Positions 651 to 4,215 of a DNA stretch of 64,000 nt are shown here, piece after piece. A model generated the notes under the pieces. The model was given only the letters and a program-made list of their open reading frames with translations. It made no database searches and had not been told where the DNA came from. The translations under genes and the position numbers were made by a program. This DNA is from Actinomycetota bacterium (lineage in GTDB: Bacteria; Actinomycetota; Aquicultoria; Aquicultorales; Aquicultoraceae), in the NCBI GenBank assembly GCA_018333515.1, contig JAGXSZ010000005.1, forward strand, positions 62,001 through 126,000. Direction: 5' to 3'. How positions within the stretch are numbered: position 1 is the first letter of the stretch; the number at the start of each line of letters is the position of its first letter.

Positions 651-974
651 CTAAAACATATCTAATTGTATTTTGATAGCCTCACCAATCCTGAGCATAT
701 CTTCTTTTGATAAGAGACCGGCGCGCTTAAATAATCTCAACTTACTTACTGTAACGAATTGATCGGCCATTGCCTTGCTTTCTTTTCCATCTAAAGTGAC
801 TAGCGCCTCGCTAGGGTACAGACAATCCGCTTTGCCGGCCAGAGGAACAACCTGGACTCGATTGAGGTATTTGTTCGATACATCATTGCTAACAATCACG
901 GCCGGACGCTTTTTTTTGATCTCTTCGCCAATCGCAGGGTCAAAATTGACCCACCAAACCTCACCTCTTGTCAT
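651..974 (-). CDS. mazF: MazF/PemK-family endoribonuclease toxin
   Basis: This 107-residue protein matches the MazF/PemK toxin family, which are ribosome-independent mRNA interferases. The N-terminus has the family hallmark TRGEVWWVNFDPAIGEE followed by KKRPAVIVSND, which forms the beta-barrel core with the conserved Arg. The ATG at 974 is preferred over an in-frame TTG at 980 because AGGGA lies eight bases before it. The start overlaps the last 14 bases of the antitoxin gene, as is usual for translationally coupled TA pairs. Length is normal and no key residue is obviously missing. RNA cleavage specificity cannot be read from the sequence. Confidence 0.9.
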   Translation of the reverse strand: MTRGEVWWVNFDPAIGEEIKKKRPAVIVSNDVSNKYLNRVQVVPLAGKADCLYPSEALVTLDGKESKAMADQFVTVSKLRLFKRAGLLSKEDMLRIGEAIKIQLDMF

Positions 975-1191
975 CGGCAATATCCCTGAACGTTGTATCC
1001 GCCCAATCCAGGGCTTCTTCTTCTCGCTTTTTGTCTTTTGCCATTTGAGAGTATGCCGGCTCCAGGTTTGAACGAACTACATGCGGACGCACCAACGCCT
1101 CAACAAACTTGCTGATTTTTCGAGCGCCGATGGTTTTATGAAGACCTTCGTATACTTCTTCATCTATGGTTATGGTCAACTTCTTTTGCAT
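961..1191 (-). CDS. Ribbon-helix-helix-type antitoxin of MazF pair
   Basis: This 76-residue protein has an N-terminal beta strand, KKLTITIDEEVYEGL, typical of ribbon-helix-helix DNA-binding antitoxins. Its acidic, probably unstructured tail (EEEALDWADTTFRDIADDKR) is of the kind that occludes MazF. The start at 1191 follows a run of six G residues. It overlaps mazF by 14 bases. A perfect inverted repeat and a promoter lie immediately upstream at 1208-1245, consistent with autoregulation. Confidence 0.85.
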   Translation of the reverse strand: MQKKLTITIDEEVYEGLHKTIGARKISKFVEALVRPHVVRSNLEPAYSQMAKDKKREEEALDWADTTFRDIADDKR

Positions 1192-1300: not shown

Positions 1301-1375
1301 TGCGCATGACGGGCTCGAACCAGTGACTACCTGCGTGCGAGGCAAGCGCTCTAGCGGCGGTCCGCTAAACACGTC
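1301..1375 (-). pseudogene. Degraded tRNA-Ala-like sequence (anticodon CGC)
   Basis: On the minus strand an anticodon arm CTTGC-CTCGCAC-GCAGG is intact and would give anticodon CGC. The T-loop GGTTCGAGCC is also present. The region from the T-loop to the D-stem aligns closely with the tRNA-Ala(TGC)-like sequence at 4143-4215. The T-stem and acceptor stem no longer pair properly. The D-arm is replaced by a perfect hairpin, TAGCGG-ACCG-CCGCTA. It is probably a relic of a tRNA gene at an integration hot spot. Confidence 0.55.
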
Positions 1376-1530: not shown

Positions 1531-1551
1531 GTGCGTTAAGAGGTGCTTAAT

Positions 1552-1755
1552 ATGAGACTCACAGTTTCAATTGATCCGAATTTGGTTGAACAGGCTAAGC
1601 GTATAAGCGGAGCCAAAACAAAAAAAGAGACTATTGAGTTGGCCTTAAAAGAGTTAGTGCGTAAGCACCGATTAAGAGAAGCCGCTTCTCACGCCGGCAA
1701 AATCGATATTGCCATAACTTTAGAGGATCTGGAAAAATCAAGGGCAGAGGAATAA
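1552..1755 (+). CDS. vapB: VapB-family antitoxin
   Basis: This 67-residue protein starts MRLTVSIDPNLVEQAKRISG. It has a ribbon-helix-helix N-terminus followed by the KTKKETIELALKELVRKHR helix typical of type II VapB antitoxins with the VapB_antitoxin (DUF2191) fold. The C-terminal tail is acidic and should wrap the VapC active site. The ATG at 1552 is chosen over GTG at 1543 because AGAGG lies eight bases before it. Its stop codon TAA is immediately followed by the ATG of vapC. Confidence 0.88.
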   Translation: MRLTVSIDPNLVEQAKRISGAKTKKETIELALKELVRKHRLREAASHAGKIDIAITLEDLEKSRAEE

Positions 1756-2163
1756 ATGGAGCGCGTGCTTATTGATAGCTCTGTCTGGATAGACTTCTAC
1801 CGTCCCGAAAGAGCCCAAGACCTAAAATCTTCGGTAACAGAAGCGATCGAACTAGACATCGTTTCCGTTAATGGCACCATTGCCATGGAGGTACTCCAGG
1901 GTACAGCCAACGAATTTGGTTTTAAGAAAATTTTAGCCGATATGTGCGCTTTTAATAACCTACCGATAGATTGGGTTATTTACATGAAATCCGCGCGCCT
2001 TGGTTTTGAGCTTAGGCGTCAAGGCGTTACCGTGCCGACAATCGACATCTTGATAGCGACGACTGCAATGGAAAACAGCTGCATCCTCTGGCATCAAGAC
2101 AAACACTTCGAGCTAATAGCTCAAAAAACATCGCTAAAAACTAAGAGCTTCTCGACCTCATAA
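1756..2163 (+). CDS. vapC: VapC-family PIN-domain ribonuclease toxin
   Basis: This 135-residue PIN-domain protein has the four acidic residues expected for Mg-dependent RNA cleavage: D7 (VLIDSSVWIDF), E45 (AMEVLQG), D97 (TIDILIA) and D115 (HQDKHF). Length and motif spacing are normal for VapC. It begins on the base after the vapB stop codon, so the two are translationally coupled. The pair lies between the degraded tRNA-like sequence at 1301-1375 and the tRNA-derived repeat at 2317-2345, which suggests it arrived with an integrating element. Confidence 0.92.
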   Translation: MERVLIDSSVWIDFYRPERAQDLKSSVTEAIELDIVSVNGTIAMEVLQGTANEFGFKKILADMCAFNNLPIDWVIYMKSARLGFELRRQGVTVPTIDILIATTAMENSCILWHQDKHFELIAQKTSLKTKSFSTS

Positions 2164-2299: not shown

Positions 2300-2327
2300 C
2301 TTTAAACAAACCGCCCTTAGGCGGTTT
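2300..2327 (-). terminator. Probable intrinsic terminator of the DUF429-RlmJ-like gene
   Basis: On the minus strand a perfect 8-bp stem, AAACCGCC/GGCGGTTT (2327-2320 with 2315-2308), closes a four-base loop. It is followed by TGTTTAAA rather than a clean T-run. It lies about 150 bases past the stop codon of the minus-strand gene. Half of the stem falls inside the 29-bp direct repeat. The other half lies outside it, so the hairpin exists only in this repeat copy. Confidence 0.45.
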
Positions 2328-2345
2328 CGGAGCGGAGGATAACGG
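2317..2345. repeat. Direct repeat, left attachment-site-like copy
   Basis: This 29-bp sequence is identical to 4127-4155 and includes the core AGCGGAGGATAACGG. After the repeat the two copies diverge at once (ACGAT here, GCTCG at the tRNA). This is what a recombination junction at a tRNA 3' end produces. Confidence 0.8.
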
Positions 2346-2478
2346 ACGATCTTCGAACATTTGCTAACAGTGGGCTTAAATCTTAAAAGAATAATAAGTA
2401 TTTGCCATAGTGCGCCCCTGTCGAACGTTGGCCTTAATCAGCGGGGGCAATCAGGCCGACATGAAAAACAAACCAGCG

Positions 2479-3978
2479 CTATTCCCCGTTTTGCTGAAGG
2501 CCGAGTTCCGTGTTTATTCGGCTGTGATATTTGATTTGGCAACCTATTGCTTCTGTAAGATTTATTGAAAAGTCCTCGACTGCTTGATGTAATTCAGCTA
2601 AGCCCTGTTCCTGATAATGTTTATGAGTATAGAGCGAAATATATGAATGGTATTTTGACTCACCATTTATTGTCGAGTTATCAATCACCTTGCATTTCAA
2701 TGAGACATAATTAACAGATCCTGCTAGTGTTAATGAATCTTGCATTTTCTTGAAGGTATTCCAATATTCTATTTCAGAATCGGCGTACAGGATATATAGT
2801 GCTACTGAAACTTTGCCACTCGCTACTTTCTTAATAACCTTTTCTAATACGCTCTTGTTTATATTCGCAAGGTCGTAAAATGGGTCTATCAAGTGCAAAG
2901 TGTCCTCATTGTCTGAGAACTTGCAATCGAGAATAGAATACCCGTCGCTATGGTCAAACCCGGTCAGTGAGATTGGTTCTAAGCCTGTGTTTATAAGGTC
3001 ATTTCGTGCTTCTGTGTCTTTGTCAGATGAGTATATACGGACCTTGTTATTATTTGTCGCGCTGATTTGAGCAACCAAATGACCGCTGCCATAGTACCCT
3101 TGAATGCATTCTTGTTGGGCGCTTTTTAGTGGGCAAGGACTGAGCTTTTCTATTCTTTCTGCCACTGTTTCGTGAGTCGGTTCTTGCCAAGGACGCCCGC
3201 CAAAAGGATCATAAAATGCTAAGCGCTCATTCGTAGTCCGGCAATGCCAATTTATAAATTCTGCTAACAGGCCATGCTTTATTAGATCGCCTGCATTCCC
3301 CATTGTGTATGGTAATGGTTTGGATTCTAATTCAACCGGCCAATAATAGTACGTTTTGCCGCATGGCTTTACGATACGTTCATTCTCTCTAATCTGTAAT
3401 TTGTGCAGATCAAGTTTCCATGCGCCTGTCACTCCCATCAGGAGAGTGTAGGCGGAAATAACAGCATCCCACTCGTGTTCATTAGAGGTTTTTATCTTTA
3501 TGCCTAATTTATCTGACATAAAACGATCCATAGCTTCACTGTCATTAGCATAGTCATGCTTTTTTTGAGTTAAAGCATAATAAAGAACTTTCGGATGGGT
3601 TTCTACCAAAAAAATATCGTTTAAATTCTTTGCGACTTCAATTAGTACCGACATGCCGTTTATGCCCATAGCGCCAGAAAGTTTATTTGGTGTCATTACG
3701 CTTTTTTGAACCATGGGATATTTATTTCTTAACCATTTATCGGCAGGTCTCCAACCACTGTTGCCCGTGCTCCAACAAGATAATGTATCAACGCCTAACC
3801 CAATAATATTTTCATTTTTTAATATTTTGCAGATAACAGCTTCAGAGTTTTTCGTTGTCTCGATTCTAATATCCATAGGCTTGCTCTTTTCGATTTTTAG
3901 GATGGCAAGACCATTTGTATTATTACCGCCGGGGTCATAACCAACAATCGAAGCATTTATTTGATATGTCTCATTCAT
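2479..3978 (-). CDS. DUF429/RNase H-like nuclease fused to RlmJ-like methyltransferase domain
   Basis: This 499-residue protein appears to be a two-domain fusion. Residues about 10-190 look like the DUF429 RNase H-like predicted nuclease fold: candidate acids are D15 (GYDPGG), D64 (GVDTL), E126 (VETHPKVLYYAL) and D171 (EHEWDAVISAY). Residues about 225-485 resemble RlmJ/DUF519, the 23S rRNA A2030 N6-methyltransferase: GNAGDLIKHGLLAEF, then FYDPFGG, YYGSGHLVA, and LIDPFYD where RlmJ has DPPY. The altered motif IV leaves methylation uncertain. The gene is lower in GC than the core genes and is the sole occupant of a repeat-bounded islet with its own promoter. A defence or anti-mobile-element role is inferred. 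Both domain assignments rest on visible motifs only. Confidence 0.7.
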   Translation of the reverse strand: MNETYQINASIVGYDPGGNNTNGLAILKIEKSKPMDIRIETTKNSEAVICKILKNENIIGLGVDTLSCWSTGNSGWRPADKWLRNKYPMVQKSVMTPNKLSGAMGINGMSVLIEVAKNLNDIFLVETHPKVLYYALTQKKHDYANDSEAMDRFMSDKLGIKIKTSNEHEWDAVISAYTLLMGVTGAWKLDLHKLQIRENERIVKPCGKTYYYWPVELESKPLPYTMGNAGDLIKHGLLAEFINWHCRTTNERLAFYDPFGGRPWQEPTHETVAERIEKLSPCPLKSAQQECIQGYYGSGHLVAQISATNNNKVRIYSSDKDTEARNDLINTGLEPISLTGFDHSDGYSILDCKFSDNEDTLHLIDPFYDLANINKSVLEKVIKKVASGKVSVALYILYADSEIEYWNTFKKMQDSLTLAGSVNYVSLKCKVIDNSTINGESKYHSYISLYTHKHYQEQGLAELHQAVEDFSINLTEAIGCQIKYHSRINTELGLQQNGE

Positions 3979-3997
3979 GTTGCCTGTTAATTCCTTT

Positions 3998-4026
3998 CAT
4001 ATATAACCAGTGTGTGTATTGATCAA
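3998..4026 (-). promoter_or_regulatory. Candidate promoter of the DUF429-RlmJ-like gene
   Basis: On the minus strand TTGATC (4026-4021) and TATATG (4003-3998) are 17 bases apart and lie about 20 bases upstream of the start codon. The Shine-Dalgarno candidate AAAGGA lies rather far from the ATG, about 13 bases. Weakly supported. Confidence 0.4.
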
Positions 4027-4126
4027 TATAATACTCCAAACTTGCTTTTTCTGGCCATGAAGTAATACCCCTGCGTATCCATATATGAGACATTATGGAT
4101 CGCGCCACATACTAAAAGAACACTTA

Positions 4127-4155
4127 TTAGGCGGTTTCGGAGCGGAGGATAACGG
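4127..4155. repeat. Direct repeat, right copy at tRNA 3' end
   Basis: Identical to 2317-2345 over 29 bp. The first 16 bases lie downstream of the tRNA-like gene, including its discriminator position. The last 13 correspond to the 3' acceptor strand and part of the T-stem of the tRNA-Ala-like gene on the minus strand. Confidence 0.8.
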
Positions 4156-4215
4156 GCTCGAACCGATGACCCCCTGCGTGCAAGGCAGGCGCTCTCCCAA
4201 CCGAGTTAATCCCCT
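4143..4215 (-). tRNA. tRNA-Ala(TGC)-like gene, possibly degenerate
   Basis: This 73-base cloverleaf on the minus strand has anticodon stem CCTGC/GCAGG with loop CTTGCAC (anticodon TGC), D-loop GGTTGGGA, T-loop TTCGAGC and a seven-base acceptor stem. The alanine identity pair G3-U70 is kept. Defects are A1-C72, A10-C25, T50-T64, G14 in place of A14 and discriminator G73. CCA is not encoded. It may be a weakly scoring but functional tRNA or a decayed copy left by integration. The 29-bp repeat overlaps its 3' end. Confidence 0.6.

Follow-up and report, generated by a model that had tools for sequence, protein, structure and literature searches.

Results

The window, i.e., the whole 64,000-nucleotide stretch of Actinomycetota DNA that was analysed, contains a 1.8-kb islet bounded by two copies of the exact 29-nt direct repeat TTAGGCGGTTTCGGAGCGGAGGATAACGG, which a repeat search placed at 2317-2345 and 4127-4155 (100% identical, spacing 1810); an exact 29-mer pair inside 4 kb is negligible by chance. 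The sole long ORF between the repeats (2479-3978, minus strand) encodes a 499-aa protein, and the GC content of the islet is 39.5% vs 54.9% for the window, as expected from the original prediction of identical 29-bp repeats around one low-GC gene. While the cob genes to the right of the islet have a GC content of 56.5%, that of the toxin-antitoxin region to its left is also low (44.1%); Pfam searches identified a VapBC module and a MazF-type pair in this region, which are the toxin-antitoxin pairs that had been proposed to lie nearby. The islet itself, being one 499-aa gene without a partner ORF, does not have the two-gene layout of a type II toxin-antitoxin system. It also has no integrase of its own, as it holds one long gene only, and the integrases of the source genome are located elsewhere. 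The features of the locus are as follows.

651-1191, minus strand: MazF/PemK toxin at 651-980 with a weak VapB-like antitoxin at 961-1191, by Pfam
1306-1352, minus strand: diverged tRNA-Ala-like fragment (85% over 47 bp) between the MazF-type and VapBC modules
1543-2163, plus strand: VapB (1543-1755) and VapC PIN (1756-2163) module adjoining the islet, by Pfam
2308-2327, minus strand: terminator hairpin AAACCGCC/GGGCGGTTT, whole at the left repeat and split at the right repeat
2317-2345, no strand: left copy of the 29-bp direct repeat and putative tRNA-distal att site
2346-4126, no strand: islet body between the repeats, low in GC, its gene absent from congeners
2359-2369, minus strand: TGTTAGCAAAT, which may be an arm-type site of an integrase, at a distance of 13 bp from the left repeat; shared with the integrase locus of contig C16
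2479-3978, minus strand: DUF429-RlmJ-like fusion gene, 499 aa (ORF; complete homologues L192 and L193)
4127-4155, no strand: right 29-bp direct repeat, comprising the final 14 nt of the tRNA-Ala copy and 15 nt downstream
4142-4215, minus strand: tRNA-Ala(TGC), divergent second copy, by ARAGORN; the sole tRNA in the window

ARAGORN thus confirmed that the right repeat contains the 3' end of a tRNA-Ala-like gene, although this gene is a second, divergent copy; the possibility that it represents the main tRNA-Ala was ruled out, since the main tRNA-Ala(TGC) is located on another contig (C7). The two copies are 96% identical over 71 bp, and the counterpart of the main copy adjoins a tRNA-Ile in two relatives (G002 and G003). 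At positions 1 and 10, the window copy carries A instead of the main copy's G, and its discriminator base is G; because of these differences in sequence, it may not function. The islet appears to split the terminator of this tRNA. In tRNA orientation, GGGCGGTTTGTTT comes after the left repeat and pairs with AAACCGCC inside the repeat, and joining the flanks restores a terminator hairpin of -15.0 kcal/mol (4 of 200 shuffled sequences folded equally well), compared to only -1.4 kcal/mol for the tRNA-proximal junction. The predicted empty site reads tRNA...CCGCTCCGAAACCGCCTAAGGGCGGTTTGTTT. This exact attB sequence was not found in 10 genomes of the family, congeners included, and the empty site is hence a prediction rather than an observation. 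With a 25-bp core and up to 3 mismatches allowed, the left repeat is one of only two matches among 11 family genomes.

The 11-mer TGTTAGCAAAT occurs five times in the 2.33-Mb source genome, i.e., once in the islet (at one end only), as two copies on contig C16, and as two copies within coding sequences; outside genes, it is therefore found elsewhere only beside the C16 integrase. The C16 pair is in tandem between a tyrosine integrase, which reads as frameshifted, and a tRNA-Arg, and a decayed N-terminal fragment of the islet gene (64% identity, residues 18-76) is located 0.8 kb past TGTTAGCAAAT. Further C16 genes, read by eye, include HsdM, RhuM, and HsdS-like genes as well as a PIN-type toxin-antitoxin module, and this contig likely holds a type I restriction locus. 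Several decayed integrases are present in the source genome.

None of the three congeners has the islet gene, nor do seven further genomes of the family, and it was matched in only two of 396 genomes of the host's phylum, the second in the DUF429 part only. The gene is thus not fixed at this place in related genomes, even though the empty sites that the original prediction would have there were not found as an exact attB. The cobT-cobK interval was variable in all three congeners, where it carried MazF and ParE-type genes (G001), two ParE-type genes (G002), or ParE-type and HicA genes (G003). Mobility, which had been proposed from the repeats, is supported by absence of the gene in congeners, restoration of the terminator, the arm-type motif, the decayed second copy, and a C-terminal relative with 56% identity in another phylum; with considerable confidence, we regard the islet as a mobile cassette.

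The islet protein combines two domains, the features of which are located as follows, all on the minus strand.

3361-3978: DUF429 domain with a predicted RNase H fold, approximately residues 1-206 (Ruegeria match; full-length homologues pass the DUF429 cut-off)
3934-3936: codon of D15, acid 1
3787-3789: codon of D64, acid 2
3601-3603: codon of E126, acid 3
3466-3468: codon of D171, acid 4 (all four acids invariant in a six-sequence alignment)
2479-3336: RlmJ-like methyltransferase domain, approximately residues 215-499 (profile, hhalign, AF2, and Foldseek)
3274-3303: motif X MGNAGDLIKH, residues 226-235, with the equivalents of RlmJ D15, K18, and H19
3196-3210: SAM motif I DPFGG, residues 257-261 (alignments)
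2875-2886: motif IV DPFY, residues 365-368 (alignments)

Scans of the whole window protein against Pfam, NCBIfam, PADLOC, PHROGs, and PDB sequences gave no usable match, with neither domain above threshold; no NCBIfam model, the three-Cys-motif partner TcmP included, was matched at E<=1, and PADLOC did not match the protein to known defence systems. When scanned for exact peptides, viral and genome collections yielded no relative, and while a plasmid search gave one DUF429 match, a phage search gave none.

For the N-terminal domain, a match to a Ruegeria protein with DUF429 annotation covers residues 11-213 (33% identity; tblastn E=4e-11). The window protein remains under the PF04250 gathering cut-off (12.8 bits vs 23), but its full-length homologues L192 and L193, which align with it along their full length, are above this cut-off with 36.5 and 38.1 bits. 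Like the DUF429 family (PF04250; COG2410/4328/4923), the protein has four invariant acids, consistent with the RNase H-fold nuclease domain with four acids that had been predicted, the third and fourth being E126 and D171 in the alignment of six sequences. The N-domain profile had no sequence match in the PDB, and a single-sequence AF2 model reached a pLDDT of 34. DUF429 has been placed in clade D of the RNase H-like proteins together with RuvC and YqgF; a 2014 survey considered its genomic context to be conserved and mobility unlikely, and reported fusions to NUDIX or RelA/SpoT domains and none to an RlmJ-like partner (PMC3985635). DUF429 proteins are mostly single-domain, whereas the window protein is fused to an RlmJ-like domain, a fusion that is not described in the DUF429 literature that we found. 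In a separate genome (G022), a gene at L003:805-1980 (minus strand) encodes a HAD phosphatase joined to a DUF429-like domain, representing another fusion partner for this fold.

Relatives of the C-terminal domain, identified by an IUPAC pattern scan of genome contigs for [FY]xxGNxGDxxKH, were found in Desulfobulbaceae, other deltaproteobacteria, Acidobacteria, and one alphaproteobacterium, with the closest relative (56% identity over 119 aa) in the Desulfobulbaceae, i.e., in a different phylum. A seven-sequence profile of this domain matched RlmJ structures in the PDB (E=2.5e-10) and, by hhalign, the RlmJ profile (98% probability, 3e-13); the window sequence alone scored 27.1 against the RlmJ profile, with a top score of 24.4 among 200 shuffles. 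An AF2 model from the seven-sequence alignment reached a pLDDT of 79 and a pTM of 0.84, and its 14 best Foldseek matches in the PDB were all RlmJ/DUF519 (TM about 0.55). These data bear out the assignment of an RlmJ-like domain, which has the same fold as RlmJ (PF04378/DUF519), the 23S rRNA A2030 m6A methyltransferase. A literature search returned nothing on COG2961 or DUF519.

Motifs X, I, II, III, and IV are collinear between RlmJ and the C-terminal domain, and equivalents of D15, K18, H19, S100, and D164 are kept; among these, the catalytic pair K18/D164 and the counterparts of D15 and S100 are conserved even in distant relatives. By contrast, the domain does not have the Y4/H6 tail or W195, has DPFY for DPPY and a shorter insert after motif I, is attached to a nuclease domain, and is under the Pfam and NCBIfam thresholds. 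Y4, H6, K18, and D164 are essential in E. coli RlmJ (PMC3814359). Since nothing clearly equivalent to Y4, H6, or W195 is found at the aligned positions, methylation by this domain is uncertain; judged from the conserved residues, its chemistry is probably retained and its substrate changed. The DPFY reading of motif IV that had been pointed out is present, but it does not mark a dead or sensor-only enzyme, because DPF[YFD] or DPYD is found throughout the subfamily and K18/D164 are kept. A dead methyltransferase due to DPFY was accordingly rejected.

A profile search of Desulfobacterota identified matches in six of 345 genomes, two of which represent complete DUF429-RlmJ-like fusions (L192 in G441 and L193 in G539; open frames of 465 and 453 aa). 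The composition of the islet protein, which had been thought to be undescribed, is thus not unique. Both fusions have the same domain order and active-site residues as the window protein, but are only 23-25% identical to it and are located in ordinary chromosomal surroundings without tRNA or mobility genes. In G441 the fusion adjoins a radical SAM gene and what reads as trpS, and in G539 it adjoins oxidoreductase genes. In the class that contains these fusions, matches were found in four of six genomes (both fusions, a stand-alone DUF429, and a C-terminal fragment). The ordinary contexts in G441, G539, and G591 argue against a purely mobile defence family. The DUF429 part of both fusions weakly matched PDC-S44 (3e-6 and 8e-5), which is only a PADLOC candidate and was not matched by the window protein itself. 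The G441 fusion with its radical SAM gene (L196:5855-8387) and a homologous C-terminal fragment with a Memo gene in G591 (L211:3566-4662) show a possible link to AmmeMemoRadiSam genes.

By contrast, several stand-alone relatives of the C-terminal domain were found in settings that count in favour of a defence cassette, as does the PDC-S44 match of the fusions. One (L081) is located directly 3' of a tRNA-Ser and has a broken frame, and two (L072 and L141) adjoin a conserved HEPN-like RxxxxH protein that is 48% identical between these loci; L072 is also near a probable relaxase gene, as read by eye. A convergent, conserved RxxxxH HEPN-type neighbour of the RlmJ-like gene, which is absent from Pfam and PADLOC, was observed at L201:6927-7787 and L141:1684-2511 (both minus strand). 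At L093:3644-5305, the closest relative of the C-terminal domain is located downstream of genes for a zinc-ribbon/J-domain protein and for a protein of 209 aa whose similarity to HerA is weak; this group is operon-like in appearance and cut by the contig end.

A search with a tRNA-Ala probe identified many partial tRNA-Ala copies across the family, and such copies are common in the source genome too. Most are chimeric, with a conserved non-tRNA 5' part (GGGGGCGTAGTTYAAGAACGTTCGG...) followed by the tRNA from the D-arm on; approximately ten dispersed chimeric repeats were observed in four genomes (e.g., L213:3521-3602, L212:3641-3721, L007:10470-10540, and L216:5542-5593), mostly next to toxin-antitoxin or restriction genes, and these are possibly att sites of one element family. 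Among 15 tRNA-Ala-like repeats examined in four genomes, approximately 12 were close to toxin-antitoxin, restriction, or other defence genes, which is a raw count rather than a measured enrichment. Their neighbours include BrnTA, MazF-type, VapBC, HicAB, DUF433-DUF5615, and ParE-type modules, as well as a class II pAgo and its SIR2 partner (694 and 413 bits, respectively). This SIR2/pAgo pair (389-3393 of L213, G000:C7:37000-45000) ends approximately 130 bp ahead of a chimeric repeat in the source genome. In two species BrnTA adjoins such repeats, but the locus differs: in G001 it is the main tRNA-Ala, and in G000 the cob locus. Downstream of the G000 main tRNA-Ala, there are genes for a Dam-type methylase and a type II restriction endonuclease. 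In G008, the main tRNA-Ala and a repeat fragment enclose genes for a type II restriction endonuclease and an N6/N4 methylase (2763-5593 of L216, contig C133), and this 2.7-kb restriction-modification islet resembles the window islet. Small integrase-free modules bounded by tRNA repeats recur in the family. The window islet is bounded by the 3' terminus of a complete tRNA copy, which differs from the chimeric repeats at other cassettes, and the islet may therefore depend on another integrase. With regard to the defence cargo that had been suggested, toxin-antitoxin, restriction-modification, and SIR2-Argonaute genes beside most such repeats provide an association, and nothing beyond it.

Discussion

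We propose that the islet represents a non-autonomous integrative cassette with a single cargo gene, which encodes a one-protein module for anti-phage defence or addiction; taken as a whole, this explanation has about even chances of being correct. We infer that insertion would have occurred through site-specific recombination of the tyrosine-recombinase type between the 3' end of the tRNA-Ala copy and its terminator, with an integrase that was provided from elsewhere or has since been lost. The islet would be part of a tRNA-Ala-associated hotspot system, whose cargo in this family consists mostly of toxin-antitoxin, restriction-modification, and SIR2-Argonaute genes. Assuming catalysis by both domains, the protein would combine a metal-dependent RNase H-fold nuclease (DUF429) with a SAM-dependent RlmJ-like adenine-N6 methyltransferase; the latter may recognise a structured nucleic acid, probably RNA, and mark the host's own, while the nuclease domain would cut the unmarked target. 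Some role in defence or addiction is slightly favoured by our analysis, while this modify-or-cut mechanism is put forward tentatively and with considerable doubt. Its most specific form, a one-protein RNA restriction-modification module in which the RlmJ-like domain would mark an adenine in structured host RNA and the RNase H-fold domain would destroy the unmarked form from phages or stressed cells, spreading between tRNA sites as a minimal cassette, seems distinctly unlikely.

The origin of the islet could also be explained in other ways. It might be the remnant of a larger integrative element that lost its integrase and no longer moves, with a gene that served the maintenance of this element or superinfection exclusion; an integrase arm-type motif at a single islet end, several decayed integrases in the genome, and the combination of an integrase remnant, restriction genes, and a decayed gene copy on C16 are consistent with such an origin. 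We nevertheless consider it unlikely, since 29-bp repeats that have stayed identical speak for an insertion that is recent or maintained, and since integrase-free modules bounded by tRNA repeats recur in the family. Partial tRNA-Ala copies are common in the source genome, and the repeat could hence have arisen when the 3' end of the tRNA was partially duplicated, without site-specific insertion of the gene; exact restoration of the terminator by joining of the flanks, as predicted by insertion, along with the foreign composition of the islet and its absence in relatives, makes this highly improbable.

With regard to the function of the gene, the protein may be a housekeeping-type enzyme that modifies or processes RNA, was taken up as cargo, and has no defence role; its RlmJ-like domain would methylate an adenine in rRNA or tRNA, and DUF429 would trim or check the same RNA. 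Such a function would fit the matches in four of six genomes of one Desulfobacterota class, in ordinary contexts by radical SAM or Memo genes, as well as the activity of RlmJ, the nearest characterised relative of the C-terminal domain, on rRNA (PMC3814359); by contrast, the patchy distribution (two of 396 genomes of the host's phylum), the position of the window gene in a toxin-antitoxin array at a tRNA site, and the decayed copy in a second defence-rich island speak against it, and we regard it as possible but doubtful. The protein might also act in abortive infection as a sensor-effector, with a non-methylating RlmJ-like domain that binds SAM or a nucleic-acid end and keeps the RNase H domain inactive until infection. 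While the loss of RlmJ Y4, H6, and W195, which are needed for or contact the target base, with conservation of the SAM-side residues, and the presence of DPF for DPP in motif IV are consistent with a sensor, conservation of the K18/D164 pair and of the D15 and S100 equivalents in distant relatives suggests retained chemistry and renders this explanation quite improbable.

Type IIG restriction-modification enzymes, like the window protein, combine a nuclease and an N6-adenine-type methyltransferase in one chain. The window protein differs from these enzymes in having a predicted RNase H fold where PD-(D/E)XK is usual and an RlmJ-like rather than a DNA-type methyltransferase, as well as in having no recognised target-recognition domain. 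As for the proposed cassette, it shares a direct repeat of the tRNA 3' end, the absence of its own integrase, and defence-type neighbours with tRNA-anchored integrative islands and integrase-dependent hitchers, but is just 1.8 kb in length and contains one gene; our literature search found no report of single-gene tRNA islets like this one.

If the islet gene indeed encodes a defence module, it would represent a single-protein nuclease-methyltransferase whose methyltransferase half is akin to an rRNA enzyme, and the logic of restriction-modification might extend to RNA. Irrespective of this, a compact hotspot system is defined in this family by tRNA-Ala-like repeats next to toxin-antitoxin, restriction, and SIR2-Argonaute genes, and it can be mined for further defence genes.
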